Below, one piece after another: positions 5,864 through 22,874 of a stretch of 64,000 bases of DNA. The notes beneath the pieces were generated by a model. It saw only the letters and a list, made by a program, of their open reading frames with translations, was not told the origin of the DNA and searched no databases. This stretch comes from Collibacillus ludicampi (GTDB lineage Bacteria; Bacillota; Bacilli; Tumebacillales; BOQE01). The position numbers were made by a program, and so were the translations under genes. Each line of letters begins with the position of its first letter. Within the stretch, counting starts at the first letter, position 1. The stretch is from assembly GCF_023705585.1 (NCBI RefSeq), contig NZ_BOQE01000001.1, positions 3,194,710 through 3,258,709 of the forward strand, read 5' to 3'.

Positions 5864-6055
5864 ATGGCTACGGTAAGAGGGGAAAAACGGAGAAAGAAAC
5901 GCTTGCGTCAACGTAAGAGGAGACGGGGCAATGTCGAAATCCAGATTTTTCAACCCAGTTTCCGGGAACGAGACGATCCACGCCCCGGTTGGTTGGTGGC
6001 AGTCGGGGAATGGATTCCAAATAAAAGGAAAAGCAAGGAAAGGAGCGGAAAGTAA
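5864..6055 (+). CDS. Very basic small protein before parM
   Basis: 63 residues; the N-terminal third is almost all Arg and Lys, suggesting nucleic-acid binding. GGGGAAGGGCACAGG precedes the ATG. Its stop codon ends 1 nt before the GTG of the ParM-like gene, so the two would be translationally coupled. In plasmid segregation operons a small DNA-binding adaptor (ParR-type) usually accompanies the actin-like filament protein. This gene sits where such a partner might be, but it shows no ParR-like fold signature. Confidence 0.4.
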   Translation: MATVRGEKRRKKRLRQRKRRRGNVEIQIFQPSFRERDDPRPGWLVAVGEWIPNKRKSKERSGK

Positions 6056-6056
6056 A

Positions 6057-7109: not shown

Positions 7110-7139
7110 GAACTCATCCAACAAGGAGGGGAGAGTTCG

Positions 7140-7703
7140 ATGGAACATAGGCAGGATCAATGGGCGTATCGACTTCTATGCGAGTACATTGAAACGCGGA
7201 AGAGACTACGGGCATACCATCAGGAGTTGACGCAGCGGATCAACCAGGGGGAAGAGTTGCTAAGAGGCGAACGTGAGTGGGTCGGGAGCATGCTGCATGA
7301 GTCAACGGAGGTGATACCGAAAATTGCCACGTACTGTTCGGTAGATCAGCTGGAGCCACGTGAACGACGCATGGTGCTGCGACTCCAACGACTTGCGCAT
7401 GGAAAAAAATCGAAGGTACAGCTCTGGGATAACGAATGGATGCAACGGCTTCCCGACCAAAGAGATTGGGAGGAAGAGCTGATCGCTAGACTGGATGGCG
7501 AAGAGTCGGAAGGAAAGATCAGCGTTTCTCTTTCGAATCTAGCTGAGAGACAGCGGGAAGCGATCGAAATGCTCGCTTCTGGAATGTCCTATTCCGATGT
7601 GGCTGAGATGATGTGTATCGCGAAAGGAAGTGTATCCAAACACCTACAGCTGGCTCGAAAAAAACTTGCCAGTGGTGCGCAGTTAGAGTGGTGCATAGAT
7701 TAG
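7140..7703 (+). CDS. Sigma-70 region 4-like transcriptional regulator
   Basis: 187 residues; AAGGAGGGG before the ATG. The N-terminal two thirds is helical and charged. The C-terminal HTH (LAERQREAIEMLASGMSYSD, then VAEMMCIAKGSVSKHLQLA) is the sigma-70 region 4 type also seen in ArpU-like phage and element regulators. It lies 30 nt after the ParM-like gene in the same direction and probably controls transfer or late functions of the element. Confidence 0.7.
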   Translation: MEHRQDQWAYRLLCEYIETRKRLRAYHQELTQRINQGEELLRGEREWVGSMLHESTEVIPKIATYCSVDQLEPRERRMVLRLQRLAHGKKSKVQLWDNEWMQRLPDQRDWEEELIARLDGEESEGKISVSLSNLAERQREAIEMLASGMSYSDVAEMMCIAKGSVSKHLQLARKKLASGAQLEWCID

Positions 7704-7773
7704 CGTTTTCAATCTATTACGAAAATCGTCTGAGAAATCCTTGATGCTTTTTCAGAGAGGAGAATTGCAGCAG

Positions 7774-8094
7774 ATGAAAGTTGACGATATTGGGGTAATC
7801 CACATACACGCACAAAAAGAGAATCATGATGATGCATATATCGTGGCGAATCGCACGGCATTGAAAAAACTAAAGGACTTGATTGATGGGGCCTTGCAAA
7901 AAGGAAAATCATGTGGAGAATTTATGCCGCAAGACGGAGAATGCTTTGATCTCTATATCATTGTGGATGATTCGGATTGGCAATCAGAATCTTGGAAACG
8001 CAGAGCGTTGCCGTATACCGATGAGATTGCCTCACATCCTCATAGAAAAGATGTTGTCTATCCTTGGATGGACACAAAACCTTCAGCACGATAA
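7774..8094 (+). CDS. Small acidic protein, function unknown
   Basis: 106 residues from ATG 7774 (GGAG 11 nt upstream; TTG 7741 is an alternative). The core AYIVANRTALKKLKDLIDGAL is followed by a beta-rich part (DLYIIVDDSDW). No known motif. Its position between the regulator and the amidoligase operon suggests an element function. Confidence 0.5.
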   Translation: MKVDDIGVIHIHAQKENHDDAYIVANRTALKKLKDLIDGALQKGKSCGEFMPQDGECFDLYIIVDDSDWQSESWKRRALPYTDEIASHPHRKDVVYPWMDTKPSAR

Positions 8095-8120
8095 ACCGAA
8101 CACCTATTTTTTCTTTCTCC

Positions 8121-8165
8121 CTCTCCTCTTAATGGGTGAATACCCAGGAAAGGAGAGGATTTTTA
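8121..8165 (+). promoter_or_regulatory. Leader hairpin hiding the ribosome binding site of the amidoligase
   Basis: CTCTCCT (8121-8127) pairs with AGGAGAG (8151-8157), which is also the Shine-Dalgarno. A small inner stem GGGT/ACCC lies between them. A T-run (TTTTT) and then the TTG start follow directly. The same design recurs at 11624, 45550 and 48022. Confidence 0.55.
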
Positions 8166-9821
8166 TTGCCATCAGCTGCAACATGTCGGGTCTGTCATAG
8201 GCCCTTGCGGAGTATGCTCAGTGTTCTTCAAGGTGTAGGACCTGTCTGCTCGAAAAAGGTCCGGCAGGCCCTGGAACAGATTCTCGAGCGGGTCATCCGC
8301 GGCGAGGCCGAGCCTGAAGACCAGATTGCCTATGCCATGTCTCCGGAGGAGCGCCAGCGGGCGGTCGAGGCCCAGGTAAGGCGGGCTTACCTGGAACAAT
8401 TGCGTCAAAATCGGCGTCCTACCCGGGAGCCGGTGACGGTGGAGGTGGAGGTGGAAAGCAGGACCCGAGGGATCAGCCGGGAGCCCACTACGGTAGAGTG
8501 GATTGACCGCGATCATGCCTGGGTGCATTCCCAGCGCGGGGGACGATATCAGGTCACCGAACACGCATGTACCTGTCCTGACTTCACAATCCGTCGCTCT
8601 CGGGACCCGGAGCTGGCGCGGGAAGGTTGCCGGCATATGCAGGCCCTGCGTTTGGCTCGGGAAGAAGTACGTGAGCGCCGGAGACAAGCGATGCGAATAG
8701 CCCGGATGCGAACACAGCAAGCAACGGCATCGATTGTGGTGAATCAGACCCATGAAGAAAACCATCCTACCTTTGCACAGATTGACTGGACCGTCGAAGC
8801 GGAACGGGATCGTGTTCTGGACATTTGGTGCCGGAACCGGGAATGGGACGGCGTATTCATCAGCCGGGATGATGTGGCGTGGGAAGCGCTACAGGAGCAA
8901 GCTCGGCAGGAGTGGGAGTACAGGTACGAAAATGTTCTGGGAGGCACCGGGAACACCTTTGGCATCGAGATTGAGGTACAGTTTGACAATAGCTCCTCTA
9001 GGGAACGGGCGTTGAGGGAACTGTACAATGAGGGTCTGACGATTGGCCCGCAAATGCGCGGGTATCACTCTGGCGACGGGAACGGGTTCTGGAAACCGGA
9101 ACGCGACGGATCGTTGGGTACATATGGGGGCGAGTTCGTGTCTCCCGTGCTGAATGACGATCCGGAATCCTGGAAACAGATCGAGCGGGTGACGGAAATC
9201 CTGCGTCATCACGGGGCTTATGTCGATGACCATTGTGGTGGTCACATCCATCTGGGGATTGCGCCGTTAGACCACCGGACGTACTCCTGGCAACGCTTGG
9301 CCCGAATCGGGGTTGGATATGAGAAACAGCTTTACCGCATGGGAGGGGCCAATTCGGATCAATATCGGAGCACGGGTAGACCCGGTCAGCATCGCGGTTC
9401 CCACTATGCAAAGCCTCTGCCGAGAGGTTTGAGCTTCAACGGAAATATAACGGCTGCGGAAGCGCGGCGTCGCATCAGCAACGGAAGCCGTTACACGATT
9501 TTCAACACGACGAACATTGACCGCACGAGCGGCCGACCCGCGATTGAGTTCAGGTATCCGAACGGCACGCTGGACCATCGGCAAATTCAGGCGCAGATCC
9601 AGGTGGCCAATGCCATCCTGCACCAGGCAGCGGTGATCCGAAACGGTTCTCCGCAGTCGGATTTCACTCCTCGATTTAGTGAAGAAAACAAACATGCCAG
9701 ATTGACCGATTATCTTACACCAGAAGCGGAGGAAAAGAATTTTCGTCAGTTTCTGGATGTCCTGGCGAATCCGCAAGATCGTCTGGCTGCAACATGGCTA
9801 TGGTTGCGCGGACGATATTGA
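8166..9821 (+). CDS. Amidoligase with N-terminal Cys-motif and SWIM zinc finger
   Basis: 551 residues from TTG 8166 (AAGGAGAGG upstream; GTG 8136 is the longer alternative). Three parts are visible. Residues 1-40 carry CRVCHRPL...GVGPVC, a DUF6011-like Cys motif. Residues about 125-160 form a SWIM zinc finger (CTCPDF...CRH), likely to bind DNA or protein. From about 265 to the end is an Amidoligase_2 domain: FGIEIEV, RDGSLGTYGGEFVSPVL, GGHIHLG and IEFRYPNG are the metal- and substrate-binding blocks of the glutamine-synthetase-like COOH-NH2 ligases. It should form an amide or isopeptide bond using ATP. The gamma-glutamylcyclotransferase downstream fits a gamma-glutamyl substrate. Target unknown. 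Confidence 0.75.
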   Translation: MPSAATCRVCHRPLRSMLSVLQGVGPVCSKKVRQALEQILERVIRGEAEPEDQIAYAMSPEERQRAVEAQVRRAYLEQLRQNRRPTREPVTVEVEVESRTRGISREPTTVEWIDRDHAWVHSQRGGRYQVTEHACTCPDFTIRRSRDPELAREGCRHMQALRLAREEVRERRRQAMRIARMRTQQATASIVVNQTHEENHPTFAQIDWTVEAERDRVLDIWCRNREWDGVFISRDDVAWEALQEQARQEWEYRYENVLGGTGNTFGIEIEVQFDNSSSRERALRELYNEGLTIGPQMRGYHSGDGNGFWKPERDGSLGTYGGEFVSPVLNDDPESWKQIERVTEILRHHGAYVDDHCGGHIHLGIAPLDHRTYSWQRLARIGVGYEKQLYRMGGANSDQYRSTGRPGQHRGSHYAKPLPRGLSFNGNITAAEARRRISNGSRYTIFNTTNIDRTSGRPAIEFRYPNGTLDHRQIQAQIQVANAILHQAAVIRNGSPQSDFTPRFSEENKHARLTDYLTPEAEEKNFRQFLDVLANPQDRLAATWLWLRGRY

Positions 9822-9846
9822 CAATAGAAAAGTATATTTTTATACT
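9818..9846 (+). promoter_or_regulatory. Strong sigma-A-type promoter
   Basis: TTGACA (9818-9823), 17-bp spacer, TATACT (9841-9846). The -35 overlaps the amidoligase stop codon. It should drive the unknown protein, the cyclotransferase and HU. Confidence 0.7.
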
Positions 9847-9893
9847 ATAGAAAAACAAAGCGGTATTCGAAAGAATAAAAGGAGGGGTGTCTT

Positions 9894-10613
9894 ATGGTCA
9901 ACATCGAGGAACGGAGACACTGGTTGGAGGACGGGCAGGAGCCAACCCTGCCGTACTATATTGAATTTGCTGACGGTCGGAGGGGGGAAGCGGCCAACCC
10001 TTCCCGTCTGATGGACCTGATCATCCACGAGTATTTCAGCGACGTGGATGATCCGCACACTTTTTATCTCCTGGGCGTGAAATGCCTGCGGGACATCGCG
10101 TCGGGACCGTTGGCCATGATGGGAGTACGGGCTACTGTGTACGACGGCGTGGGGCCTTTCTATGACTCGGCGATCAGCCGGTATAAGGATGAGGTCGATG
10201 AGGAAAGTGAACTTGAGTTTCAGAACCCCGACGATCCTGTGATGCTGGACGGATGGGATCCGTGGACAGTCGTCGCGAGTCTGATCAAGGCCGGGTATAT
10301 CAAGGTGTGCGAGAAGTATCCGACCTGGAGCGGCGAAGGACCGGTGCGAAAGAGAAAATGCGACGGTTGTGTGTTTCGTGAAGAGGTCTTCGAAGACGAG
10401 AAAGGAAAATGGATCTATTGCTCGTCGTGGGAAATGGAGCTGGGGTTTGAGAACGCGGGCCACAATTGCCCGTACATCACGCATGGTACACCCTATGAAG
10501 ATTACCACGAGGTAAAGCCTGAAGAATTGCCGGACCCAGCCACCTGGAAACCAGATTGGGTTCCAATTTCTAATAGGAAGAAGGAGTATATCGGGTTTCG
10601 GAGGCAAAAATAA
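9894..10613 (+). CDS. Unknown protein with a possible C4 metal site, in amidoligase operon
   Basis: 239 residues, AAAGGAGGGG before the ATG. The first two thirds is a mixed, acidic globular domain. The last third has four Cys (CDGC at about 159-162, then YCSSW and NCPY) that could hold a zinc or iron-sulfur centre. I recognise no family. It is flanked by the amidoligase and the gamma-glutamylcyclotransferase, all in one direction with short gaps, so it may be the substrate, an adaptor, or a third enzyme of that pathway. Confidence 0.6.
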   Translation: MVNIEERRHWLEDGQEPTLPYYIEFADGRRGEAANPSRLMDLIIHEYFSDVDDPHTFYLLGVKCLRDIASGPLAMMGVRATVYDGVGPFYDSAISRYKDEVDEESELEFQNPDDPVMLDGWDPWTVVASLIKAGYIKVCEKYPTWSGEGPVRKRKCDGCVFREEVFEDEKGKWIYCSSWEMELGFENAGHNCPYITHGTPYEDYHEVKPEELPDPATWKPDWVPISNRKKEYIGFRRQK

Positions 10614-10639
10614 GCGGAAATGAAGGAAGGGAGAACGCC

Positions 10640-11149
10640 ATGCCACTATACTTTGCCTATGGCTCCTGTATGAACCAGGCCGATCTTGCTCGGAGTGAGC
10701 CGAGGGCTGTTTATCTCGGCCCTGCCGTGCTCCGTAACTATCGCTTGGCGTTCTCCCGGTACTCTACATATAGGGGAGGTGGTGTAGCAGACATCGTTCG
10801 CGAACCGGGTGAGTTTGTCGAAGGTGTACTGTACGAGGTAGATGATTTTCACGCACTCGACCGACGAGAAGGGGCACCATTTGTCTACCGGCGAAGAAAA
10901 GTCCGGGTGTACCCTGAAAGTCTTGGCGGCCGATGGCGGTGGGCGTGGACCTATGAGGTCGTCGAAAAATCCCCGGTGGAGATCGCGCCGTCTTGGGAGT
11001 ATGCGTTGCTCATATGGGAAGGTGCTAGGTCGCTCAGTTTGGAGTATCGAAGGAAGCTTAAAGAAAATCTTTTAAGAAAGGATAGGGTGAAATTCAATGA
11101 CGAAACAAGATTTGATTGCGAAAGTGGCACTAAAGTCTGGCTTGAGTAA
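10640..11149 (+). CDS. Gamma-glutamylcyclotransferase (AIG2/GGCT-like)
   Basis: 169 residues; GAAGGAAGGGAG before the ATG. The N-terminal YFAYGSCMN is the substrate-binding loop (YGSN in most members, YGSC here, as in many Bacillota). The catalytic acid is in [10 protein letters not shown], around residue 75. These enzymes release 5-oxoproline from gamma-glutamyl amides, the reverse sense of a gamma-glutamyl amidoligase. The pair amidoligase plus GGCT is known from phage and plasmid neighbourhoods. The last 17 codons overlap the HU gene in another frame, an unusually long overlap. Confidence 0.75.
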
Positions 11150-11375
11150 AAAAGATGCAGCGGCAGCCGTCGATGCGGCATTAGATTCCATTTCGGAAGC
11201 GCTGGCTGCGGGCGACAAGGTGACGCTCGTAGGATTTGGTGCCTTCGAGATTCGGGAACGGGCGGCGCGTACGGGCAGGAACCCGCAAACAGGAGAGACG
11301 ATTGAGATACCGGCCGGTAAGGTTCCTGCCTTTAAACCTGGGAAGGTACTCAAAGAGGTTTGCAAGACGGCTTAA
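11097..11375 (+). CDS. HU-family DNA-bending protein
   Basis: 92 residues, the full length of HU. It has the N-terminal helix pair ([19 protein letters not shown]), the [14 protein letters not shown] strand, and the Arg/Gly/Pro arm ([13 protein letters not shown]) that wraps DNA. The ATG lies inside the 3' end of the cyclotransferase gene. Mobile elements often carry their own HU, which may assist recombination, segregation or transfer. Confidence 0.95.
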
Positions 11376-11393
11376 CTTCATCGGTGAAAAGCA

Positions 11394-11609
11394 ATGAGCG
11401 ATATTCGTGTATATGCTCACGAGATCCCACAGTGTATGACAATTGAACTGAGTGAAGTAGAAAGGTGTATGTTCGCCAATCTACTCACCAGCTTTAGAAT
11501 CAGTGTAGATGTAGCAGGTGATACGTTTCAGCATTTGTATCGTCTTGGTCTTGAACGAATTTATAAGGAATACGTGAAAGACAAGCGCTGTGTGGGTCAA
11601 GAATACTAA
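11394..11609 (+). CDS. Small protein, function unknown
   Basis: 71 residues starting 18 nt after HU. It is helical with two Cys-containing segments (EVERCMFANLLTSF), ends just before the tcpC leader hairpin, and has a weak Shine-Dalgarno (GGTGA). No family recognised. Confidence 0.4.
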   Translation: MSDIRVYAHEIPQCMTIELSEVERCMFANLLTSFRISVDVAGDTFQHLYRLGLERIYKEYVKDKRCVGQEY

Positions 11610-11623
11610 AATTTTTCTCTCGC

Positions 11624-11652
11624 CCCCTTTTGTTAGTGAAAGGGGTTTTTCT
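11624..11652 (+). promoter_or_regulatory. Leader hairpin with ribosome binding site, tcpC
   Basis: CCCCTTT (11624-11630) pairs with AAAGGGG (11639-11645), which is the only Shine-Dalgarno. TTTTT and then the TTG start follow. Upstream is TTTTTCTCTCG, repeated exactly before the VirB6-like gene (48012). Confidence 0.6.
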
Positions 11653-12471
11653 TTGATCCGAAAACTGACCAGTACAATTCTTTGGATTCTGCTGGCATTA
11701 GGGGCCTTGGGGAGTCGGGACGATTGCTCGGATCTCCACACCGAATCCATCCGAAACAGCCGTTGTTCATGATGATCATGCGGAAACAGCTATCGCGATC
11801 CACGCTGCGAAAGTCTGGCTCACCTTGACTAAGGGGAGACGGCGGAACAACGGAAAAAAACCGTAGAGGAGTATTGGCCTGATCTTGATCTCCAAGGATG
11901 GGTGCCTCCATCGCAGAATCAGACACCTCGGGAGATGTATGCTCAGCAAGTGTCTCACCCCGCATCCAATTTCTCGGTCGTATCAGTGGAAGCATGGTGT
12001 GAGGTATCAGAAGGGCAGGCGCTGCAGATTCGTCATCTTGTGCTAAATGTTCCGGTGCTCCGAACGGACTCGGGAGCCTTGATGATCACGGCACCGCCAA
12101 CAATCGTTCCGCCTCCGGCCCTGGGGCAAAAACCGCCTTCGACGGCGAAGAATGCGCCGCAGGATGTCTATGACGTGGCCAAGCCGTTCATCAGTGACTT
12201 CATGCGGATCTATTTGACTTCGTCGAATGCAGCGGATCTAGCGAATATGGTCGTTCCGAATACAACGATCCAACCGATGGGCGGTTTCGTCCAGTTCCGG
12301 CAGGTAGCCAGCCTGAACATCCATGACCTAGGCAAGGGACACTATGAGGCGGTGGTGATAGTCAACGTCCAGGATCCAGCCACGCAGACGATGTTGCCGG
12401 AGCAGTTTCTGGTGGATTTTTTGAAAGACGACAAAGGACATTTGGAGGTCGAGAAAGTTTGGCAGCACTAA
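11653..12471 (+). pseudogene. TcpC/VirB8-like conjugation protein, two frameshifts
   Basis: TTG start with embedded Shine-Dalgarno, then a membrane anchor (LIRKLTSTILWILLALGALG). After about 11710 the homologous text continues in the next frame (VGTIARISTPNPSETAVVHD, then AETAIAIHAAKVWLTLTK). After about 11835 it returns to the first frame (ETAEQRKKTVEEYWPDLD). From there it is open to the end, with the NTF2-like C-terminal domain. TcpC is an inner-membrane part of the Gram-positive conjugation channel. The two shifts cancel, so they may be sequencing errors or true decay. The intact part could also be translated from 11902. Confidence 0.6.
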
Positions 12472-12476
12472 GATCG

Positions 12477-13009
12477 GTGATGCTTTTGGGACCCATGGGC
12501 GTTTGAAAGACCACCACGGCCCGCGTAATAGAACAGCGTTATGGATATCGTTGTTACTCGTTAGCCGAACCCGTGCGTCGGGTGGTGGAAGCCGCTTTTC
12601 CCTGGCTGAATGGGGAACCGAAATCCGTCCGCCGGACATATCTGCAACAGGCGGGAAAGTTCCTACGAAAATTTCATCCGAATCCCATTCTGTATCATGC
12701 GGAAACAACGATTCGAACCTGCTATCGCCCTTTGATCATCGACGATGGCCGAACGCTGGAAGAGGCGAAATGGGCATTGGAACGGGACATGGCTGTGATT
12801 GTCCTGACCTGTCGGGAGGAGCGCATGTCCCGGCTTTTGGAACGGGATGGTACGTTACCGGATTTGCGGACTTTTCGGGAAAGACGGAGCAGGAGTGGAT
12901 GAAAGTCGAAGCAACGCAGGTGGATACCACCTTTCTTTCTCCCGAAGAGGTCGCTGCATACGTGCTTGAACTGGTGAAAGAGAGGAAACAAGAATGCTTG
13001 CGAAACTAA
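12477..13009 (+). pseudogene. P-loop nucleotide kinase-like gene, nonsense in Walker A
   Basis: The frame starts MLLGPMGV, then TGA where Gly is required, then KTTTARVIEQRYGYRCYSL. Restoring one codon gives a Walker A loop GPMGVGKTTT. It continues with a kinase-like body (FLRKFHPNPILYHAE, IVLTCREERMSRLLERDG). Near 12890 a frameshift moves the tail (VDTTFLSPEEVAAYVLELVK) to another frame. The shape resembles dNMP or adenylate-type kinases. In frame the first 11 codons lack a usable start after the stop. Confidence 0.5.
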
Positions 13010-13100
13010 ACGCCCAGAAACGGTTGCACTGGATCAATCGACGAGGATTCCGCAAGGAATAGGTGGGGTGCCAGGGTAAGGGGGGAATGGAGGTGATGGA

Positions 13101-13688
13101 ATGATTTATAAAACTCATCACGTGGCCGCACTCATTGGTGCCGAGTTGTGGTTAATACACACGCACCAGCCGGTTCTCACATGGCAGACAGCGGTGGCTC
13201 TATTAGGCGCCTACTTCGCCGGACCGGCGGCCGACGTAGATCAACCCCAGTCCTATGTGGGACAGAGGATATGGCCACTTGCAATAGCGTTAAGTGGGCT
13301 GGGAATCCGACATCGGACCCTGACCCACTCACTTTTGTTTCTGGCTGGTTTGTGGGGAGTGTTGCAACTCCTGCCTTTGTCGGATATGATCCGTTGGGCT
13401 ATATGGATTGGCTATGCAAGTCACCCGCTGATAGATCTGTTCAACGAGGAAGGGGTCGAACTCCTGTGGCCATTACGCATTCGGGTGCGCTTGTTGCCGA
13501 GGTTTCTATCCATCCCTGTAGAGTCATTTGCCGAAACCTTGCTGAGAGGAGTGATGACCCTGTGTAGTTTCTGGTTACTGACACTGTATCTGCACCCCGT
13601 TGTCACGAAGTTGCCATTGCTAAGACCTATAACAGACGGAATCATCCAATTGATGCCGTCTGCTATTCAAACTTTTATTAATAAATGA
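13101..13688 (+). CDS. YdjM-like membrane-bound metal-dependent hydrolase
   Basis: 195 residues, GGAGGTGAT before the ATG. It has about four hydrophobic segments plus the family motifs: an early THHVAALIGAE, AADVDQPQS around 48-56, and HRTLTHSLL around 73-81, whose His and Asp residues are the predicted metal ligands. YdjM proteins (LexA-regulated in E. coli) are membrane hydrolases of unclear substrate, common in plasmids and elements. It lies in the same direction as the tcp genes. Confidence 0.7.
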   Translation: MIYKTHHVAALIGAELWLIHTHQPVLTWQTAVALLGAYFAGPAADVDQPQSYVGQRIWPLAIALSGLGIRHRTLTHSLLFLAGLWGVLQLLPLSDMIRWAIWIGYASHPLIDLFNEEGVELLWPLRIRVRLLPRFLSIPVESFAETLLRGVMTLCSFWLLTLYLHPVVTKLPLLRPITDGIIQLMPSAIQTFINK

Positions 13689-13712
13689 GAGATAAATGAG
13701 AGGTGAATATAC

Positions 13713-13985
13713 ATGCCAACAACCGGAATTGGCCCTATTGACAACTTAGGTAAGCTGATCCTGAGTATTTTCGTTATACTTCTGTTTGTTATGATGGGTG
13801 GCCGATTAATCAAAATGCTTCACCGTCACGAATACGCCCAATTGGTTTCCACTCTCATGCTATTTGGCATTGCTTTGTGGTTTATTATTGACCCCGCCAG
13901 CCTGATCAACATCTTCAAGTCGATCTTCAGCGGCGCAGCAGGTAAGCTGGGTGGCGGCGGTGGCGGAGCCGGAACAGGACAGTGA
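13713..13985 (+). CDS. TcpD-like conjugation membrane protein
   Basis: 90 residues with two hydrophobic helices (LILSIFVILLFVMMGG and LVSTLMLFGIALWFII) and a Gly-rich C-terminus. Size, topology and position directly before the TcpE gene match TcpD, a small integral membrane component of the tcp-type conjugation channel. The assignment rests on context as much as sequence. Confidence 0.6.
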   Translation: MPTTGIGPIDNLGKLILSIFVILLFVMMGGRLIKMLHRHEYAQLVSTLMLFGIALWFIIDPASLINIFKSIFSGAAGKLGGGGGGAGTGQ

Positions 13986-13991
13986 TAAAAT

Positions 13992-14585
13992 ATGGCCTAT
14001 CGTACGTATCGGAACCTGTATCGTATCCGTCCGTCCCTGTCCTCGATCGGGCAGGGGCGGTACCGAATCCGATTGCCTCGGGGTATGCAAATTACGGGAG
14101 ATACCGCGATCCTCACGGCTGTCTTATGGTTGCCGTGTTCGATCACTGTTGGACCTTTCCTCAGTTACTATATTCCTCTCGGTCCTTTCCTCCTGGGCCT
14201 TGGTGTAGCCGGAATTATTGGCTACCAGCTGAGTAAGCTGGATCCGGCGGGAAAAACCGTGGTGCTTTACTTGTATGACTTTGTGAGATACCTGTTTCGC
14301 TCAAAGGTTCATGACGGCTGGGAATCTCGCCCGAATCCGAAAGGACGACCGGAATCGGTCTCGTGGAGTGCGCGGGTGTCTCTCGTAGAAGATGGTCGGG
14401 TCGCCAGTCTGCCAGCGAAGGGCCGGGTGACACAGCTGGAGTTGAGGGTGCCAGCGCACGTGAAGGTGAAAAAAGGAGAGGTGATCATACAGCACAGGGG
14501 AAAACGCTTGTCTCCGGGGTGGTATGAGATCACGGAAGGGAAGGTCATGCCGAAACGTCTACCGCCAAAATTAAAGAGAAGCTAA
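13992..14585 (+). CDS. TcpE-family conjugation membrane protein
   Basis: 197 residues, 6 nt after the TcpD-like gene. The N-terminus has the family pattern YRIRPSLSSIGQGRYRIRLP, followed by two membrane helices around residues 37-75 and a soluble, basic C-terminal domain. TcpE binds the membrane near the VirB4-type ATPase in plasmid pCW3 and Tn916-like elements. Here the next tcp gene in the usual order (VirB4/TcpF) is 31 kb away. Confidence 0.75.
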   Translation: MAYRTYRNLYRIRPSLSSIGQGRYRIRLPRGMQITGDTAILTAVLWLPCSITVGPFLSYYIPLGPFLLGLGVAGIIGYQLSKLDPAGKTVVLYLYDFVRYLFRSKVHDGWESRPNPKGRPESVSWSARVSLVEDGRVASLPAKGRVTQLELRVPAHVKVKKGEVIIQHRGKRLSPGWYEITEGKVMPKRLPPKLKRS

Positions 14586-15052: not shown

Positions 15053-15193
15053 TTTAACTACACGTAAATTTATCCATACTTATTAAGGTTTTATTAAGAA
15101 AATATGTGAATGAAGGGTGAGAGAGGAAAGCGGTAACGTACCTAAAAAGACACGCTTCTTATCTCTTCGTTTTTCACGAAAGGAGGGGGTCTC

Positions 15194-15721
15194 ATGGTGG
15201 AAATGGGGAAAGGGGCGGTCGTGGAGGCGCCGATCGATCAATTGTTGGTAGAAAAACTTGCGGATCCGCAAACGATTGAGAAACTGGTTCGCCTACTCGA
15301 CAAGCTCGAGCATGTAACGTTTCTCCTCGATATGTTAGAAAATTTCCTTCGTCGCGGGCCTGAAATCGCTGATTCAATCAACGATCTCGTCGTTACTTTA
15401 CGAGAAAGCTTGTCCAAGCCCGAATACGTTTCGCGCTTTGAGCTCGCCTTTACCGCCGTGCGTCGAATGCAGGAGTTTCTCGATTCACCTCAAGTTCAAG
15501 AGTTATTCAAATCCGATGTCCTTGACGTGCGTTCGGTACAAATGCTTGGAAAAGTGTCTCGTTCTATGATCCAAGCCTCTACAGAAACGGCACAGACAGG
15601 CATAAAACGGGTGGGGCTTCTCGGACTCATGCGGACATTGGGTGATCCGGAGGTGCAACCGGCGCTCAATTTTGTTCTCAATTTCGCGAGACATATATCG
15701 AAGGAGCTTGCCGATGCATGA
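15194..15721 (+). CDS. DUF1641 protein, first gene of the huc operon
   Basis: 175 residues, all helical, with strong Shine-Dalgarno AAAGGAGGGGG. The repeated pattern LVRLLDKLEHVTFLLDMLENF and GLLGLMRTLGDPEVQPALNF is typical of DUF1641, a domain seen beside formate dehydrogenases and hydrogenases. In mycobacteria the gene before hucS encodes HucM, a helical scaffold that holds the hydrogenase octamer and guides menaquinone. This protein occupies a similar upstream place, but I see no sequence likeness that I could defend. Its stop overlaps the hypA start by 8 nt. Confidence 0.75.
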   Translation: MVEMGKGAVVEAPIDQLLVEKLADPQTIEKLVRLLDKLEHVTFLLDMLENFLRRGPEIADSINDLVVTLRESLSKPEYVSRFELAFTAVRRMQEFLDSPQVQELFKSDVLDVRSVQMLGKVSRSMIQASTETAQTGIKRVGLLGLMRTLGDPEVQPALNFVLNFARHISKELADA

Positions 15722-16097
15722 ACTGTCCATCGCCCATAGCTTGGTTGAGATAGCCGTCGAAACAGCAGAAAATGCGCGGATGAAACGGGTAAAAGCCCTT
15801 TACTTGAAACTCGGTGCCTTGTCAGGTGTGGTCAAAGAAGCCTTGGAATTTTCCTTCGATGTGGTCATCCAGGGGACGCCTCTTGAAGGGGCGAGGCTTG
15901 TGATTGAGGATGTTCCTGTAAAAGTATTCTGTCCTGATTGCCAAGAAGCGCATAAGTTGCCTGAACCGTTTCCTATGCGATGCCCTGTGTGTGGAACGAG
16001 AACAGGTCAAGTGCTCGAGGGGCGCGAGTTGGAATTATATTCCTTGGAGGGAGGCGAAGGAGATGCAGCAGATGACGCTAAACCCCCGAATTGTTGA
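15714..16097 (+). CDS. hypA: Hydrogenase nickel incorporation protein HypA
   Basis: 127 residues from ATG 15714 (AAGGAG 7 nt upstream). It begins MHEL, where His2 is the Ni ligand, and has the zinc site FCPDC...RCPVCG (CxxC pairs near residues 71-74 and 91-94). HypA delivers Ni to the large subunit together with HypB. The tail after the zinc domain is longer and acidic (GGEGDAADDA). Overlaps hypB by 35 nt. Confidence 0.9.
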   Translation: MHELSIAHSLVEIAVETAENARMKRVKALYLKLGALSGVVKEALEFSFDVVIQGTPLEGARLVIEDVPVKVFCPDCQEAHKLPEPFPMRCPVCGTRTGQVLEGRELELYSLEGGEGDAADDAKPPNC

Positions 16098-16758
16098 AAT
16101 TCGCCAGAACGTCCTTAAGAAAAACGATCTCCTTGCTCGGGAGTTACGAAAGCGGTTTCGTGAGACCGGTGTCTACGTCGTCAATTTGGTCTCAAGCCCG
16201 GGAGCGGGAAAAACGACGCTGCTTACAGAAATGTTGACTCGCCTTGGTGAACGGTATGGTGTGGCAGCGTTGGTCGGTGATTTAGCCACAGAAAACGATG
16301 CGGAACGTTTGCGTCAAAGCGGAGCGAAAGTACGTCAAATCACCACGGGTACAGTTTGTCACCTTGAGGCGGACATGATTGAAAGATCCTTAGAAGGATG
16401 GAACTTAGAAGATATCGATTTTCTCTTTATCGAAAACGTTGGCAATCTCGTATGTCCTGCGAGTTACGATTTAGGGGAAAATCAGCGCGTTGTTCTCTTT
16501 TCTGTGACGGAAGGCGAAGACAAGCCGGTGAAATATCCTACCATCGTGAACAGCGCCGATGTGGCGGTTATTACCAAGATTGACTTGGCCGAAGCGGTGG
16601 GATTTCAACGGGATCGTTTCAATGAAGCGTTGAACGAGGTAAGACCAGGTATCCCCATTCTTGAAGTTTCTGTCCGCACGGGAGAAGGGATCGACGAGTG
16701 GATATCCCGTTTGGAGGCTGCCAAAGAAGCGTTCGAAAAAACGGTCGGTTCCTCGTAA
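16063..16758 (+). CDS. hypB: Hydrogenase maturation GTPase HypB
   Basis: 231 residues from ATG 16063 (ATG 16072 is also possible). SIMIBI GTPase motifs: Walker A SSPGAGKTTLL, switch GDLATENDAERL, the zinc/Ni-site residues CHLEADMI, ENVGNLVCP and TKIDL. HypB uses GTP to insert nickel via HypA. It lacks the His-rich N-terminus found in nickel-storing HypB proteins, which fits the separate Ni permease encoded in the operon. Confidence 0.95.
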   Translation: MQQMTLNPRIVEIRQNVLKKNDLLARELRKRFRETGVYVVNLVSSPGAGKTTLLTEMLTRLGERYGVAALVGDLATENDAERLRQSGAKVRQITTGTVCHLEADMIERSLEGWNLEDIDFLFIENVGNLVCPASYDLGENQRVVLFSVTEGEDKPVKYPTIVNSADVAVITKIDLAEAVGFQRDRFNEALNEVRPGIPILEVSVRTGEGIDEWISRLEAAKEAFEKTVGSS

Positions 16759-16831
16759 TCGATCATCCAATCGATACAACAATTCGCATCACATTTGACT
16801 CATAGAACTCGTGTTTTTGGAGGTGGAGGAA

Positions 16832-17803
16832 GTGGCGAATGTCCTTTGGATGCACGGCGGTGCGTGCAATGGAAACACCCAATCGTTTTTAAATGCTGAA
16901 GAGCCGACAGTGATTGATTTAGTCACTGATTTCGGTATCAATATCCTCTATCATCATTCTTTGTCTATGGAATTCGGCGACCAAGTGCGCCGTTTGTTCG
17001 ATCAAATCCTAAATGACGAAATCCCGTTAGATATCTTTGTTGTTGAAGGGACGATCATTCAAGGGCCGAATGGAACGGGGCACTACGACATGCTCATGGA
17101 TCGCCCGAAAAAAGATTGGATATGGGAATTCGCCCAAAAAGCCCAGTTTGTTGTTGCTATCGGCGATTGCGCATGCTGGGGCGGGATACCGGCGACGAAA
17201 CCGAATCCGTCAGAATCGATAGGCCTCCAATATTTGAAGGAGGAACGTGGCGGATTTCTCGGATCCCATTTCCGTTCGAAAGCGGGATTGCCGGTGATCA
17301 ATATTCCCGGTTGCCCGGCACACCCCGACTGGGTTTCGCAGATTCTCGTCGCTGTTGCCACTGGTCGCGTGGAAGACGTCCAGTTAGACGATTTGCAACG
17401 GCCGCAAACGTTCTTTAAGTCATTTACCCATACCGGGTGCACGCGTAATCAATACTTTGAATGGAAGGAGCCAGTGGAAGAGTTCGGGCAGGGTACGCGG
17501 AAAGGTTGCTTGTTCTATGAACAAGGTTGCCGGGGTCCGATGACCCATTCGCCGTGCAACCGGATTCTCTGGAACCGTCAATCTTCGAAGACCCGGGCTG
17601 GAATGCCCTGCATCGGCTGTACGGAACCTGAGTTCCCCTTCTTCGATTTGGCGCCGGGTACGGTTTTCAAGACACAAAAGGTTCTTGGATCCATTCCTAA
17701 GGAAGTGCCGACAGGATACGACCCGTTAAGCTACTCCGTCAATGCGGCAATGGCCCGGGCGGTGGCACCAAAATTGGCGAAGGAAGATATGTTCGTTCCA
17801 TAA
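16832..17803 (+). CDS. hucS: Group 2a (Huc-type) [NiFe]-hydrogenase small subunit
   Basis: 323 residues from GTG 16832, which has GGAGG 8 nt upstream; the GTG at 16811 is within the ribosome-binding region. It begins at once with the proximal cluster segment WMHGGACNGNTQSF and has no Tat signal, so the enzyme faces the cytoplasm. Further Cys ligands: GDCACWGG, PGCPAHP, TGCTRNQ, GCRGP, CNRILW and PCIGCTEPEFP. The C-terminal signature KTRAGMPCIGCTEPEFP closely matches mycobacterial HucS. Huc enzymes oxidise H2 at very low levels and pass electrons to the respiratory chain. Confidence 0.93.
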   Translation: MANVLWMHGGACNGNTQSFLNAEEPTVIDLVTDFGINILYHHSLSMEFGDQVRRLFDQILNDEIPLDIFVVEGTIIQGPNGTGHYDMLMDRPKKDWIWEFAQKAQFVVAIGDCACWGGIPATKPNPSESIGLQYLKEERGGFLGSHFRSKAGLPVINIPGCPAHPDWVSQILVAVATGRVEDVQLDDLQRPQTFFKSFTHTGCTRNQYFEWKEPVEEFGQGTRKGCLFYEQGCRGPMTHSPCNRILWNRQSSKTRAGMPCIGCTEPEFPFFDLAPGTVFKTQKVLGSIPKEVPTGYDPLSYSVNAAMARAVAPKLAKEDMFVP

Positions 17804-17883
17804 ACAGATAAGAATCCAGGATGATAAACCCCTACATGTCTCTTTTACAGGGAAAATCATTTTAAAAGGTGGGGTGCGTGAGT

Positions 17884-19515
17884 ATGAAGAAGCAAGAAGT
17901 TATATCGAAAAGCAAAAAAAAGGAAATTAAAGTCCACTCGCTAGGGCGGGTGGAAGGTGACTTGGACGTCAAAGTGACGATCGAAGATGGAGTCGTTGTT
18001 GATGCTTGGACGGAAGCCACCATGTTCCGCGGTTTTGAGATGATTTTAAAAGGGAAAGATCCACAAGCAGGTCTGATTGTTACCCCTCGGATTTGCGGCA
18101 TTTGCGGCGGTAGCCATCTTACCAAGGCGGTCTATGCCTTAGACACAGCCTGGAACACGGAAGTACCGCCTAACGCTACTCTTATTCGCAACATCGGCCA
18201 GGCAGTGGAAACGCTTCAGTCCATTCCTCGTTGGTTTTATGCCTTATTCGCCATCGGTCTGACTCATCAAAACTACGCTTCCTCTAGATTGTACGATGAA
18301 GTGGTTCGCCGTTGGGCGCCATTTGAAGGCGAACATTATGAGATCGGCGTCACTGTTTCGGCCAAGCCAGTGGAAATTTACGCGATCTTCGGGGGGCAGT
18401 GGCCTCATTCCAGCTTCATGGTTCCCGGGGGTGTGGTAAGTGCGCCGACGTTGTCCGACGTTACTCGGTCCATTTCGATTTTGGAATATTTCCGTGAAAA
18501 TTGGTTGGAGAAAATCCTCCTCGGTTCGTCTATTGAACGATGGCTGGAAAACAAGACTTGGGAAGACGTCCTCGCGTGGCTCGATGAAAAACCTGAGCAT
18601 CGTAATTCCGCCCTTGGTTTATTCATTCGTTACAGCATGGAAATCGGCTTAGCCAAATACGGGGCAGGTCCGGGACGTTATTTGGCGGTAGGGAACTTTT
18701 TCCATTCACAAAAATATCGCTATCCGACCATTGAAGGACGTAACGCTGCGTTATTTGCTCGTTCCGGGGTATTTGACGGGGAGGAATATCACGATTTTGA
18801 TCAATCCCGCATACGGGAAGACCACACGCATTCTTTCTACCGTGGCAGTGGCTCCCTCCACCCCTTTGAAGGGGTAACCGATCCTATTGATCCGGTAGAG
18901 GGCCAAAAAGAAGGTAAGTATACGTTTGCCAAGGCGCCTCGGTATGATCTTCCGGGTGTCGGAGAGATTTCGTTAGAGGTTGGGCCGTTGGCTCGACAAG
19001 TGATAGCCGGTCGGCCGGGTGCGGAAGAGTGGCAAGATTACGATCCCCTCTTTTTAAATATCATCAAGGAAGTCGGTCCGAATGCTTTGGTGCGTGTACT
19101 GGCACGTTTGCACGAAGCTGCGAAGTACTATTTGCGCGTACGGGAATGGCTTAAGCAAATCGATCTAAATGAGAAATTTTATATTAAGCCAACAGAACTT
19201 CCTGAAGGGCGCGGTTTTGGAGCTACCGAAGCAGCACGTGGTGCGTTGGCCGACTGGATTGAAATCAAAGACGGGAAGATCGAAAACTATCAAGTAGTAA
19301 CTCCGACGGCGTGGAACATCAGCCCGCGGGATCGTTTCGGCAAGCGAGGTCCTATTGAGACGGCGATGATTGGCGTACCCATCAGAGATCCCGAAAATCC
19401 GGTCGAATTGGCTCACATTGCGCAAAGTTACGATTCGTGCCTCGTCTGCACCGTTCATGCTTACGACGCCAAGTCGCATAAAGAATTAGCCAAATACGAG
19501 GTTGTGAAGTTTTAA
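17884..19515 (+). CDS. hucL: Group 2a (Huc-type) [NiFe]-hydrogenase large subunit
   Basis: 543 residues from ATG 17884 (AAAAGGTGGGG upstream). Ni-Fe ligands: Cys71 and Cys74 in RICGICGGSH, and Cys519, Cys522 in DSCLVCTVH. After His525 an 18-residue tail is left that the endopeptidase must remove. GRVEGDLDVKVTI, GQWPHSSFMVPGGV and GFGATEAARGALADW match the Huc family. The two subunits form the H2-oxidising core. No sign of damage, and all catalytic residues are present. Confidence 0.95.
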   Translation: MKKQEVISKSKKKEIKVHSLGRVEGDLDVKVTIEDGVVVDAWTEATMFRGFEMILKGKDPQAGLIVTPRICGICGGSHLTKAVYALDTAWNTEVPPNATLIRNIGQAVETLQSIPRWFYALFAIGLTHQNYASSRLYDEVVRRWAPFEGEHYEIGVTVSAKPVEIYAIFGGQWPHSSFMVPGGVVSAPTLSDVTRSISILEYFRENWLEKILLGSSIERWLENKTWEDVLAWLDEKPEHRNSALGLFIRYSMEIGLAKYGAGPGRYLAVGNFFHSQKYRYPTIEGRNAALFARSGVFDGEEYHDFDQSRIREDHTHSFYRGSGSLHPFEGVTDPIDPVEGQKEGKYTFAKAPRYDLPGVGEISLEVGPLARQVIAGRPGAEEWQDYDPLFLNIIKEVGPNALVRVLARLHEAAKYYLRVREWLKQIDLNEKFYIKPTELPEGRGFGATEAARGALADWIEIKDGKIENYQVVTPTAWNISPRDRFGKRGPIETAMIGVPIRDPENPVELAHIAQSYDSCLVCTVHAYDAKSHKELAKYEVVKF

Positions 19516-19588: not shown

Positions 19589-20056
19589 GTGACCGTCATT
19601 ATTGGATGCGGCAATTTACTCCGCAGCGACGACGGCGCGGGCCCCATGCTGATCCGCAAATTATGGGAACTTGGAGTTCCCCCAGGAGTGCGCTTGGCCG
19701 ATGGTGGAACCGCTGGCATGGATGTGGCCTTTCAAATCGGGGATGCAGAGGAACTCATCCTCGTTGACGTCTGTGAGACAGGAGCCGAACCGGGCACCAT
19801 TTATGAACTCCCTGGAGAAGAAGTGGAGACACCTCCACTAAAAGACGTAAACCTCCACGATTTTCGATGGGATAACGCCATCGCCTTGGGACGTTGGCTA
19901 CTTAAAAGTCGTTTTCCGAAGAAAGTGACGGTCTTCCTCATCGAAGCAGAAAACTTGTCGCACGGTTTTGGCTTGTCTTCCACGGTGGAAGCGGCAATTG
20001 AACGTTTGGCGAATGAGCTGCTCCAGCGATTGGGAGGAATAGTGAGTGAAACTTGA
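19589..20056 (+). CDS. Hydrogenase maturation endopeptidase (HyaD/HupD family)
   Basis: 155 residues, GTG start with GAAGGAGGAATC. Motifs IIGCGNLLRSDDGAGP (first metal acid Asp), LADGGTAGMDV (second acid), and a C-terminal LSHGFGLS with the His. It cleaves the C-terminal tail of HucL after the metal centre is in place. Its stop overlaps the next gene's GTG. Confidence 0.9.
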   Translation: MTVIIGCGNLLRSDDGAGPMLIRKLWELGVPPGVRLADGGTAGMDVAFQIGDAEELILVDVCETGAEPGTIYELPGEEVETPPLKDVNLHDFRWDNAIALGRWLLKSRFPKKVTVFLIEAENLSHGFGLSSTVEAAIERLANELLQRLGGIVSET

Positions 20057-20342
20057 ACTTACTTCAACAGGTTATCTCCATATATCTGCCGAAGAAGCGG
20101 CACGGTTCCCTACGGGAACCGTCATCGTTTTAGTACGCGGTGAAGAATTGTGGCTCATGCCGATGAGTCATTCAGGGGCAGGGGGATTATTGTTAAAAAT
20201 TCGTAATTCCCACGGTGACCGAAGTGTGTTTGTACAAGATCTTTTGCCGGAAGGTGTGCCACCAGGGTTTCGCGACGCAGTATGGGATGATAGGTTCGGA
20301 GCGATTCGCATTCCCCTATTGCGTTCAAGAACCACAGCGTAG
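20046..20342 (+). CDS. Small huc-operon protein, function unknown
   Basis: 98 residues with GTG start 9 nt after GGGAGG and overlapping the protease gene. Beta-rich (TGTVIVLVRGEELWLMPM, LLKIRNSHGDRSVFVQ). A gene of similar size follows the protease in mycobacterial huc operons. Probably an assembly factor; nothing in the sequence says which step. Confidence 0.65.
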   Translation: MKLELTSTGYLHISAEEAARFPTGTVIVLVRGEELWLMPMSHSGAGGLLLKIRNSHGDRSVFVQDLLPEGVPPGFRDAVWDDRFGAIRIPLLRSRTTA

Positions 20343-20350
20343 TTTTAATT

Positions 20351-21592
20351 ATGGTTTTGTTTTCAGAGAAAAAGGGGAAACGTGCTGCGGCCGCAACCGA
20401 TCGGTGTTTTTCCTGGAACGGCAGGTTTTTTCTATTACCGTCAGTTCCGGAAGGAGACAATATATTGCCGCTCCTCCTCCGCGGCTATCTTCCCGACATT
20501 TGGCCGGAGCGCTGGCGTTTTTTTGCTGCGGCAGTTGAGGGTAGAAGCGAGGATGACATTGTAGCGTTGTTACCGCAAGACCCAGAAGGCATTTATAACC
20601 GTTTTATTCTGGATCCGCAAGTCCACACGTATGCTTTGGCCAAAGAAGCGCTTGCAGGGGATGTCTCCCTTCTCTTAGACGCGGTGGCGTGGCGTCTCGG
20701 TTTATGCGAGACGCCCCCGCCGTTTGATAACACCGACGGGGAAGTACGGGCGTTTCTGTTAGCCACTCAGGCGTATGACGCATTAAACCAAAACGATTGG
20801 TCAACTGGGCTTGAGATCCTTTTGGAGGCGGCGGAAACAGTCAGGGATGTCTCTCCCGTTTTTTCGTCCCGACTCTATGCCGAATGGGCGGCGACAAAAC
20901 AGATGCTTGGCGATCACGGACAGGAAACGGTAGAGGGATATCGCAGCGCCCTTGCGCTATTAGAGGCATCTTCCTTTCAGGAAGCCCGGGCAGAGCTGTG
21001 GTTTCAATTGGGCACCGCGTACCAAGCCGATGCAGAGGGACGGAAGGGTCCCCTCTTGGAAGCGGTCAAGTGTTACCAAGAGGTGCTGAAAGTGTATCGA
21101 AGAGACACTCATCCAGAAGGATATGCCATGGTTCATATGAATTTGGCTTTGGCCTATCTAGCCATGCCGTCTTTCGATCGTGGCGCCCGTTTGCGTACTG
21201 CAGTGTCCATTCAATCACTGCGAGAGGCCTTGCGCATTTTCCAAAAGGACACACATCCGGAGCTTTGGGCGAGCGCAACAGTCAATCTCGCCAACGCGTT
21301 ACAGCATGTGCAAACGTCCCACCCGGAGGATAACCTTTGGGAAGCCGTGGCACTTTATGAAGACGTGCTTGCTGTACGGCGTCCTGAGGACGATCCCATG
21401 GGGTATGCCCGTGTCTTAGCCAATCAAGGAAATGCCTTGGCTCATTTGGGTGCGTTTTCCCGAGCGGTACCTCGGTTAGAAGAGGCTAGTCACCTTTTTC
21501 GCGCACAAGGGGAATACGATGCAGCAGAGGCTGTAGAGGACATATTAGCCGAAATTGCCCGCAAACGGAAGGAAACAACATCGAACGAGTAA
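20351..21592 (+). CDS. TPR-like protein of the huc operon
   Basis: Up to 413 residues. The start is uncertain: ATG 20351 has no Shine-Dalgarno, while TTG 20465 has AAGGAGA and would give 375 residues beginning MPLLLRGYLPDIWPERWRFF. The C-terminal half holds at least four tetratricopeptide-like helix pairs (AEGRKGPLLEAVKCYQEVLK, GYAMVHMNLALAYLAMP, ASATVNLANALQHVQ, YARVLANQGNALAHLGAF). TPRs dock partner proteins, so this is probably an assembly scaffold for Huc. Mycobacterial huc operons have a TPR gene at the same place. Confidence 0.75.
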   Translation: MVLFSEKKGKRAAAATDRCFSWNGRFFLLPSVPEGDNILPLLLRGYLPDIWPERWRFFAAAVEGRSEDDIVALLPQDPEGIYNRFILDPQVHTYALAKEALAGDVSLLLDAVAWRLGLCETPPPFDNTDGEVRAFLLATQAYDALNQNDWSTGLEILLEAAETVRDVSPVFSSRLYAEWAATKQMLGDHGQETVEGYRSALALLEASSFQEARAELWFQLGTAYQADAEGRKGPLLEAVKCYQEVLKVYRRDTHPEGYAMVHMNLALAYLAMPSFDRGARLRTAVSIQSLREALRIFQKDTHPELWASATVNLANALQHVQTSHPEDNLWEAVALYEDVLAVRRPEDDPMGYARVLANQGNALAHLGAFSRAVPRLEEASHLFRAQGEYDAAEAVEDILAEIARKRKETTSNE

Positions 21593-21645
21593 ATTTGAGG
21601 CGGGCAAGTACAAAAGGTGCAATCAATGGAGGGGAGGGGTGTATC

Positions 21646-22023
21646 TTGGATCTACATGAACAGCAATACGTCAACCTTTTGTTGGTCATGGCCGTCGAAC
21701 GCTTTAGTGAACGCATTATCCATCGCAACGAAGGGGCACAAAACGCGTTACATCGGCTCCGCGCGAATCCTCAAGGAGATGGTGTGTGGCTGAGTGAATT
21801 CGTGGACGCGTTTTTCCGCGATGCACTCCTTGATAATCCTGCTGGGTCGTGCTTGATTCTACAAGCGTTGGCCAACCAGCGCGTAAACGATCCTTCTCAC
21901 ATTCTTGAACGCGCCACCGTCGGGGAGGTGCTGCAAGAGATGGCCAAACAAACCTTCGCCACCTTGTTGCAGCAAAAAACCGAAGAAACACTCGAGCAAA
22001 CCTTGGCTTTTGGAGGTGAATGA
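21646..22023 (+). CDS. Helical huc-operon protein, function unknown
   Basis: 125 residues from TTG 21646 (GGAGGGGAGGGG 6 nt upstream). All-helical (LHEQQYVNLLLVMAVERFSE, VGEVLQEMAKQTFATLLQ). No known domain. It stands between the TPR gene and the NifU-Rieske gene and touches the latter's start. Confidence 0.6.
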   Translation: MDLHEQQYVNLLLVMAVERFSERIIHRNEGAQNALHRLRANPQGDGVWLSEFVDAFFRDALLDNPAGSCLILQALANQRVNDPSHILERATVGEVLQEMAKQTFATLLQQKTEETLEQTLAFGGE

Positions 22024-22025
22024 CG

Positions 22026-22874
22026 ATGAAAGTCCAGCAGGAGGACTTCCAAGCTTTGGCAGAACGTGTGGATCGGGTGTTGGACTCGATTAAAGAGCTA
22101 CCGGAGGATGGACGCATGAAGGCGATGGAGTTAAAAGAGGCCATCGAAGCGTTTCATGAATATGCCCTCAGAAAACTCGTCCGTACGTTTCGTGAAACGG
22201 ACGCAGGCAATGAGTTGTTGTACAAAGCTGTGGAAGACCCTGCCATATACGCCATGCTTTTCATGCACGGTATCATAAAACAAGACCTGTTTACCCGTGT
22301 TGCTGCGGTGCTCGAAGAAGTGCGCCCCTATATGCGTTCTCACGGTGGCGATGTGGAGTTGGTTAAAGTTGAAGGGGAGACTGTCTATGTCCGCCTTCAA
22401 GGTGCCTGCTCCGGTTGTTCCATGTCAGCTTTGACGTTGAAAGACGGGGTCGAGGAAGCGATCAAAGCGCGTATTCCGGAAATTCAATCTGTCGTCATGG
22501 CGGAAGAGGAGGTGGCATCCGGCTACTTGCCGTTACATGTTATCGATGATGCAGGTAACCTGGAACAAAGTGGCTGGTTGAAAGGTCCGTCTATCTCGGA
22601 AATGGAAGAAGGAAGACCGTTCCGCTTTGCCCGCGAGAAGTGCGACATCTTTTTGGTGCGCATCGATGGCAAGGTGATGGCATTTCGCAATCAGTGTCCC
22701 CATTTGGGCATGTCTCTCGACGGGGGACTTGTCGACGGATCTTCCATTATCTGTCCAGGGCACGGCTTCCGTTTCGATTTATCAACCGGGGAATGCATGA
22801 CAGCACCCTATGTGCAGTTGGAACAGTTTCCGGTACGTGTGGAGGACCAGCGGGTATGGGTACGGTTAAGTTGA
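22026..22874 (+). CDS. hucE: NifU-like plus Rieske iron-sulfur protein (HucE-like)
   Basis: 282 residues from ATG 22026 (GGAGG 9 nt upstream). Residues 1-85 are helical. Residues about 90-160 form a Nfu/NifU C-terminal domain with GACSGCSMS (CxxC). Residues about 175-282 form a Rieske [2Fe-2S] domain with CPHLGMSLDGG and CPGHGFRFD (CxH...CxxH). This fusion is the HucE type, thought to carry electrons from Huc toward the respiratory chain or to supply clusters; both are proposals from mycobacteria. Confidence 0.85.
   Translation: MKVQQEDFQALAERVDRVLDSIKELPEDGRMKAMELKEAIEAFHEYALRKLVRTFRETDAGNELLYKAVEDPAIYAMLFMHGIIKQDLFTRVAAVLEEVRPYMRSHGGDVELVKVEGETVYVRLQGACSGCSMSALTLKDGVEEAIKARIPEIQSVVMAEEEVASGYLPLHVIDDAGNLEQSGWLKGPSISEMEEGRPFRFAREKCDIFLVRIDGKVMAFRNQCPHLGMSLDGGLVDGSSIICPGHGFRFDLSTGECMTAPYVQLEQFPVRVEDQRVWVRLS

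Follow-up and report, generated by a model that had tools for sequence, protein, structure and literature searches.

What does a small helical protein of the DUF1641 family do at the head of the operon for the hydrogenase Huc in a member of the Bacilli? The question is raised by a locus of Collibacillus ludicampi, which was analyzed here within a window of 64,000 nucleotides (contig NZ_BOQE01000001.1, positions 3,194,710 to 3,258,709 of the forward strand). The Huc complex of Mycolicibacterium smegmatis offers a precedent. According to the available text of PMC10017518, hucM lies directly upstream of hucS in mycobacteria, as a preliminary description of the locus had said, and HucM copurifies with Huc and belongs to the cryo-EM complex, in which its residues 20-79 only were resolved. 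Four HucM chains form a cage (residues 20-79) and a tube (residues 80-189). The hydrophobic interior of the tube guides menaquinone to HucS, which lies 94 angstroms away from the membrane, and a helix containing Arg, Lys and Trp at the tube end contacts lipid head groups. HucS holds the menaquinone head group through Lys212, Tyr229 and Tyr301. Deletion of hucM results in loss of the oligomer with activity kept. The preliminary description had raised the possibility that the C. ludicampi protein is a HucM counterpart. Here, we present evidence that it is very probably the HucM of bacilli, with a scaffold unit that would bind HucSL and a stalk that would provide the menaquinone path as in M. smegmatis Huc.

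The gene, designated here hucM (15194-15721, + strand), begins with ATG, encodes a protein of 175 amino acids and is the first gene of its operon. A strong Shine-Dalgarno sequence, AAAGGAGG, lies ahead of the start at 15179-15186 and is kept in all seven aligned bacilli sequences, and the TGA stop codon (15719-15721) overlaps the ATG of hypA (15714-16097) by 8 nt. AlphaFold2, run on a single chain, predicts an elongated monomer composed entirely of helices (nine helices, mean pLDDT 85.7, pTM 0.42); the earlier portrayal of a helical DUF1641 protein that opens the operon is thus borne out. The order continues with hypB (16063-16758, start codon uncertain), hucS (16811-17803), hucL (17869-19515) and the genes for a HycI-type maturation protease (19589-20056), a TPR protein conserved in huc operons (20351-21592) and a NifU-Rieske protein (22020-22874), all on the + strand, followed by an NHL gene and on to a HypC-family gene. 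The hyp and protease genes were assigned by Pfam, and those for the TPR and NifU-Rieske proteins by Pfam and locus comparison; we equate the NifU-Rieske gene, probably correctly, with the Rieske-type hucE of the accessible part of PMC7784904. Further downstream ORFs we read, from their translations alone, as a second hypC, hypD, a nickel transporter gene, hypE and hypF. Two small proteins of the operon, of 98 (20046-20342) and 142 (21595-22023) amino acids, have no Pfam match at E<=0.01.

DNA similarity to Brevibacillus sp. SYP-B805 (L045, 88%) and Aneurinibacillus danicus (L035, 82%) runs from 15109/15110 through the operon. It starts 84-85 bases 5' of the hucM ATG and is absent further upstream, and hucM is therefore part of a conserved block, whose leader, with the ribosome-binding site, occupies 15109-15193 (+ strand). 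A promoter scan returned two promoter-like sites where chance alone would give 1.2, which is not meaningful, and Rfam detected no RNA families in the window. Mobile-element-like genes flank the operon at 5931-14585 and 33038-63573, among them genes for an actin-like ALP protein, TcpE, two tyrosine recombinases, a DNA methylase adjoining a ResIII helicase, an AAA_10 (VirB4-like) ATPase and T2SSE/T2SSF. Since the flanks upstream of 15109 are not common to the compared huc loci, the operon may be part of an integrated element.

By sequence, the hydrogenase itself is a true Huc of group 2a. The small subunit scores 530.7 bits against M. smegmatis HucS and 135.8 bits against the next PDB hydrogenase, and the corresponding values for the large subunit are 802.4 and 229.6 bits. 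K219, Y236 and Y308 of the window HucS correspond to the menaquinone-binding K212, Y229 and Y301 of M. smegmatis, a numbering offset inferred from the match of all three residue types. These residues are present in all 81 huc small subunits (80 loci and L033) and in none of 28 non-huc small subunits, and the C-terminal extension of HucS (residues 285-329) is present in 81 of 81 versus one of 28. The compared stretches are local matches, so the missing Y308 and extension in the non-huc proteins partly reflect the end of similarity; positions 219 and 236 lie inside these matches. A HucS-like small subunit scoring above 600 bits was found in only two of 299 genomes drawn evenly from the same phylum, that of C. 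ludicampi and G008, and the next best in this set reached 160.5 bits.

Homology to HucM covers almost all of the DUF1641 protein. In a search with the single sequence, the top PDB match is M. smegmatis HucM (7uus_Q, E 3e-5), with homology spanning residues 12-166 of the window protein, and the second is a HucM fragment (7utd_Q, E 0.00031) that covers the N-terminal scaffold part; next come YjlC and the NDH-2 membrane coupling protein, whose best stretch is confined to the C-terminal half. A 40-row HucM alignment matches the PDB HucM at E 9.2e-38, although identity to the mycobacterial HucM of L089 is only 27%. Pfam places DUF1641 (PF07849) at residues 138-170 (40.5 bits versus a gathering cut-off of 21, E 2.5e-10), and NCBIfam assigns it to no family at E<=0.01. 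M. smegmatis HucM (164-aa part) scores 18.4 bits against the same DUF1641 cut-off; the view that HucM is not a DUF1641 protein, which applies single-gene Pfam logic to this value, was rejected. Foldseek against the PDB gave no match at E<=0.001, the one row being a designed protein at E 9.8, and VIA-align gave no structural match with Z>=2. For a long helical monomer such as this model, we treat these results as uninformative rather than as counter-evidence. The AlphaFold2 helix layouts of the window protein and Mycolicibacterium palauense HucM are similar, a weak check because the two underlying alignments have many rows in common.

DUF1641 proteins also serve other enzymes, and the window protein could be an adapter, resembling ForE or the proteins linked to SQR-like enzymes, for a dehydrogenase encoded elsewhere. 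In relatives, DUF1641 proteins adjoin formate dehydrogenases and Pyr_redox_2 enzymes, and ForE of Bacillus subtilis, also a DUF1641 protein, is described in the available text of PMC8808070 as needed for menaquinone use. Against this, a profile of 14 actinobacterial hucM products alone gives the window protein 101.9 bits, versus 43.3 bits for a profile of 21 formate dehydrogenase-linked proteins and 38.9 bits for one of five SQR-like-linked proteins. (The labels of these 21 and five neighbors come from phmmer comparison with a single reference each, with Pfam applied to five of the 21 and to all five; "SQR" is a reading of Pyr_redox_2, and the enzyme may instead be NDH-2 or another flavoenzyme.) In a quick maximum-likelihood tree of 68 selected rows, a single branch (SH-aLRT 96, no bootstrap) sets all 42 hucM rows apart, and the window protein groups with mycobacterial HucM, apart from the other DUF1641 proteins. 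Additionally, the gene sits in the huc operon, its neighbors being hypA-hypB-hucSL and no molybdenum formate dehydrogenase, and the N-terminal unit described below was undetected in all 26 such proteins. An adapter for another dehydrogenase is therefore scarcely credible, and we retain the identification as HucM. The preliminary description had seen no HucM-like gene elsewhere in the locus, and the same holds for the whole genome (4.09 Mb, 99.87% complete). At E<=10 the only match of HucM profile A2 is hucM itself (E 2.7e-69), and DUF1641 has one match above its cut-off, hucM, and one sub-threshold place (11.3 bits, E 1.94).

The association of hucM with hucS extends well beyond C. ludicampi. 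Loci were taken as the best-scoring 80 of at least 558 hucS loci, which is not a survey, and together with L033 and the window they supplied 8045 ORFs. The window protein as query found 74 of these at E<1e-3: 72 that lie near hucS, one in each of 72 of the 80 loci, plus the one of L033 and the query itself. Among reversed ORFs none passed this threshold, one reaching 0.032. With M. smegmatis HucM as query, 69 were found, among them the window protein at E 3.9e-7. Among 61 relatives, eight genomes have nine hucS places at E<=1e-100, and a HucM-profile match lies upstream of each (the window, L129, L135, L136 and L176-L180). The hucS of L180 is divergent (54% identical) and the HucM directly upstream of it scores weakly (41.4 bits); this locus is perhaps another group 2 subtype. 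The bacilli genome G335 has two hucS places (L148, L151), each with its own hucM upstream.

The eight loci among the 80 that gave no HucM match in the local search have 4.0 kb or less of sequence upstream of hucS in six cases (L069, L076, L077, L080, L106, L109) and 6 kb in two (L086, L105). For L069, L076 and L080, a genome-wide search did find a HucM match. In the remaining five genomes, whose completeness is not given, profile A2 gave no match with an E value under 0.058. Four of the five are MAGs, one actinobacterial (L086), one titled Candidatus Kuenenia (L105), one planctomycete (L077) and one alphaproteobacterial (L106); the fifth is Acidithiobacillus ferruginosus (L109). With no convincing HucM for five of the 80 hucS loci, Huc without HucM may therefore exist; in Proteobacteria, Huc may do without HucM or rely on another component.

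The preliminary description had left the choice between a structural subunit and an assembly factor. A role in assembly or maturation, with translation coupled to that of hypA-hypB and no place in the mature enzyme, would account for the overlap of hucM with hypA and its place before hypB, as well as for the order hucM-hypA-hypB-hucS in all ten Bacillota loci among the best 80. Elsewhere the arrangement differs: by eye, hucM is immediately followed by hucS, without intervening hyp genes, in 23 of the 72 loci and is divergent in 11 of 72. The presence of M. smegmatis HucM in the purified complex likewise tells against this explanation, and the deletion strain, active but without the oligomer, speaks against a maturation role; we would add that scaffolds of several units, described below, are hard to reconcile with a chaperone. 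The first of the two options is favored because the N-terminal half matches the resolved scaffold segment and the C-terminal half the membrane stalk, and an assembly factor appears highly improbable. We thus infer from sequence comparison that the protein is a structural scaffold and quinone-conduit subunit.

HucM proteins consist of two parts, an N-terminal unit and a C-terminal module, for which profiles were cut from 25 one-unit proteins, the window protein among them. The core of the N-terminal unit (aa 14-75; 15233-15418, + strand) is present in one copy, scores 98.1 bits and aligns with the cage segment of HucM (20-79), a part that HucM fragment 7utd_Q matches independently of our model. 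The C-terminal module (aa 110-172; 15521-15709, + strand), which would form the stalk end and membrane foot, contains the DUF1641 motif GIKRVGLLGLMRTLGDPEVQ, in which basic residues surround a short amphipathic helix (142-149) and which aligns with the stalk end. Given these correspondences and the similar helix layouts, the same cage, tube and foot can be proposed by analogy with M. smegmatis. The scaffold unit would bind HucSL and intertwine with other HucM copies, presumably to a tetramer, to form a central cage. HucL would take electrons from H2, menaquinone entering through the HucM stalk would be reduced in HucS, and the reduced menaquinone would go back to the membrane, which the foot is expected to contact. 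A variant holds that the protein is HucM by descent but has lost the tall quinone tube and does no more than anchor a small Huc at the membrane. The tube fold is a proposal and the predicted model is a loose monomer of low pTM; the whole C-terminal module is nevertheless kept (96.1 bits, with the window protein among the 25 model sequences), as are the quinone residues of HucS, which makes the tether very unlikely and leaves a quinone-conducting HucM as our preferred reading.

The number of N-terminal units varies among the 74 hucM ORFs (72 loci, L033 and the window): 36 have one, 35 have two and three have three (L052, L064 and L065), whereas the C-terminal module occurs exactly once in every one. 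Unit spacing has a median of 96 aa (range 70-109). One-unit forms occur in Bacillota, Actinomycetota, Aquificota and one Chloroflexota locus, L082, with an ORF that begins at a contig edge; multi-unit forms occur in Chloroflexota, Acidobacteriota, Gemmatimonadota, Planctomycetota and others, with two units in many members of the four named phyla. Two-unit HucM is present (L055, L061, L062, L090) in the genera of Chloroflexus aggregans and Gemmatimonas aurantiaca, which PMC7784904 describes as cultured species that use Huc. Three-unit forms occur in an Anaerolineales and a Bryobacter lineage, and L064 and L065 are identical, so that these lineages are two and independent. Within the two three-unit proteins the units are 33-68% identical to one another and therefore look like old duplications, not assembly errors. 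The C-terminal module is present in all 26 non-huc DUF1641 proteins, none of which has a detectable N-terminal unit. A weak match to the N-terminus of YjlC (16.8 bits) makes a shared remote origin with that unit possible. In Chloroflexota, L181, L182 and L183 have a second DUF1641-type protein consisting of the C-terminal module only, beside a Pyr_redox_2 (SQR-like) enzyme and an MBL-rhodanese protein (Pfam applied to L181 only).

These counts suggest a modular quinone adapter, in which the number of scaffold units of about 95 aa would set the tiers of the hydrogenase and the DUF1641 module would be a foot common to Huc, formate dehydrogenase, NDH-2 and SQR-like enzymes. Multi-unit HucM may build a multi-tier Huc; on a single tetrameric tube, two units would give a complex of about 1.6 MDa and three one of about 2.4 MDa. 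We offer this generalization tentatively, and rate it somewhat below an even chance. It predicts that unit copy number should set Huc size, and points to DUF1641 as the mark of a membrane foot in several unrelated enzymes that reduce quinones.

HucM (PMC10017518), HysM (PMC11018855) and ForE are already in print, as is the DUF1641 gene of the Parageobacillus Huc operon together with its co-expression (PMC12976888). In open-access full text, the papers that mention DUF1641 and those that mention HucM in the context of Huc hydrogenase and membranes do not overlap, and the portions of the literature covered hold no mention of repeat units in HucM; the unit counts and the shared foot are what a specialist might not expect. 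Our analysis proposes a function for a gene of bacilli Huc operons whose annotation stops at DUF1641. Menaquinone reduction by way of a stalk, demonstrated in one mycobacterium and modeled in one archaeon, would extend to Bacillota and, judged from homology, to 72 of the 80 best of at least 558 hucS loci.

The known systems resemble the window protein to different degrees. YjlC (9snk) and the NDH-2 membrane coupling protein (9pxk) have the C-terminal module in common with it, and the PDB name states membrane coupling; the N-terminal match is weak (about 17 bits), the partner is NDH-2 by PDB title, and an open-access literature search found no structure paper for 9snk or 9pxk. ForE1 (YjgD; 8rqz) of the B. 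subtilis formate dehydrogenase ForCE likewise shares the C-terminal DUF1641 module (profile match E 1.4e-6), but the match excludes the HucM scaffold unit and the partner is a molybdenum enzyme; the menaquinone role of ForE agrees with the C-terminal module being the quinone and membrane part. HysM of the Acidianus brierleyi group 2e hydrogenase is modeled by its authors as a HucM homolog forming a tube (available text of PMC11018855), and differs in being archaeal, of group 2e and likened by description. The Huc operon of Parageobacillus thermoglucosidasius 23.6 has a DUF1641 gene in the same gene order, a likeness again drawn from description, not sequence; the term HucM has 0 occurrences in PMC12976888, and the gene is not named as such. 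In the accessible data of that paper the DUF1641 gene rises from 1.9 to 714 FPKM alongside the small- and large-subunit genes, whereas hypB of the same operon is flat (0.03 to 0.02 FPKM), a flatness that counts against the explanation we favor. The closest counterpart is M. smegmatis HucM (MSMEG_2261; 7utd, 7uus). The C. ludicampi operon differs from it by hypA and hypB between hucM and hucS, and the C-terminal module lies above the DUF1641 cut-off in the window protein and below it in M. smegmatis HucM; both proteins consist of one scaffold unit and one C-terminal module, and both have hucSL of the same type as partner.
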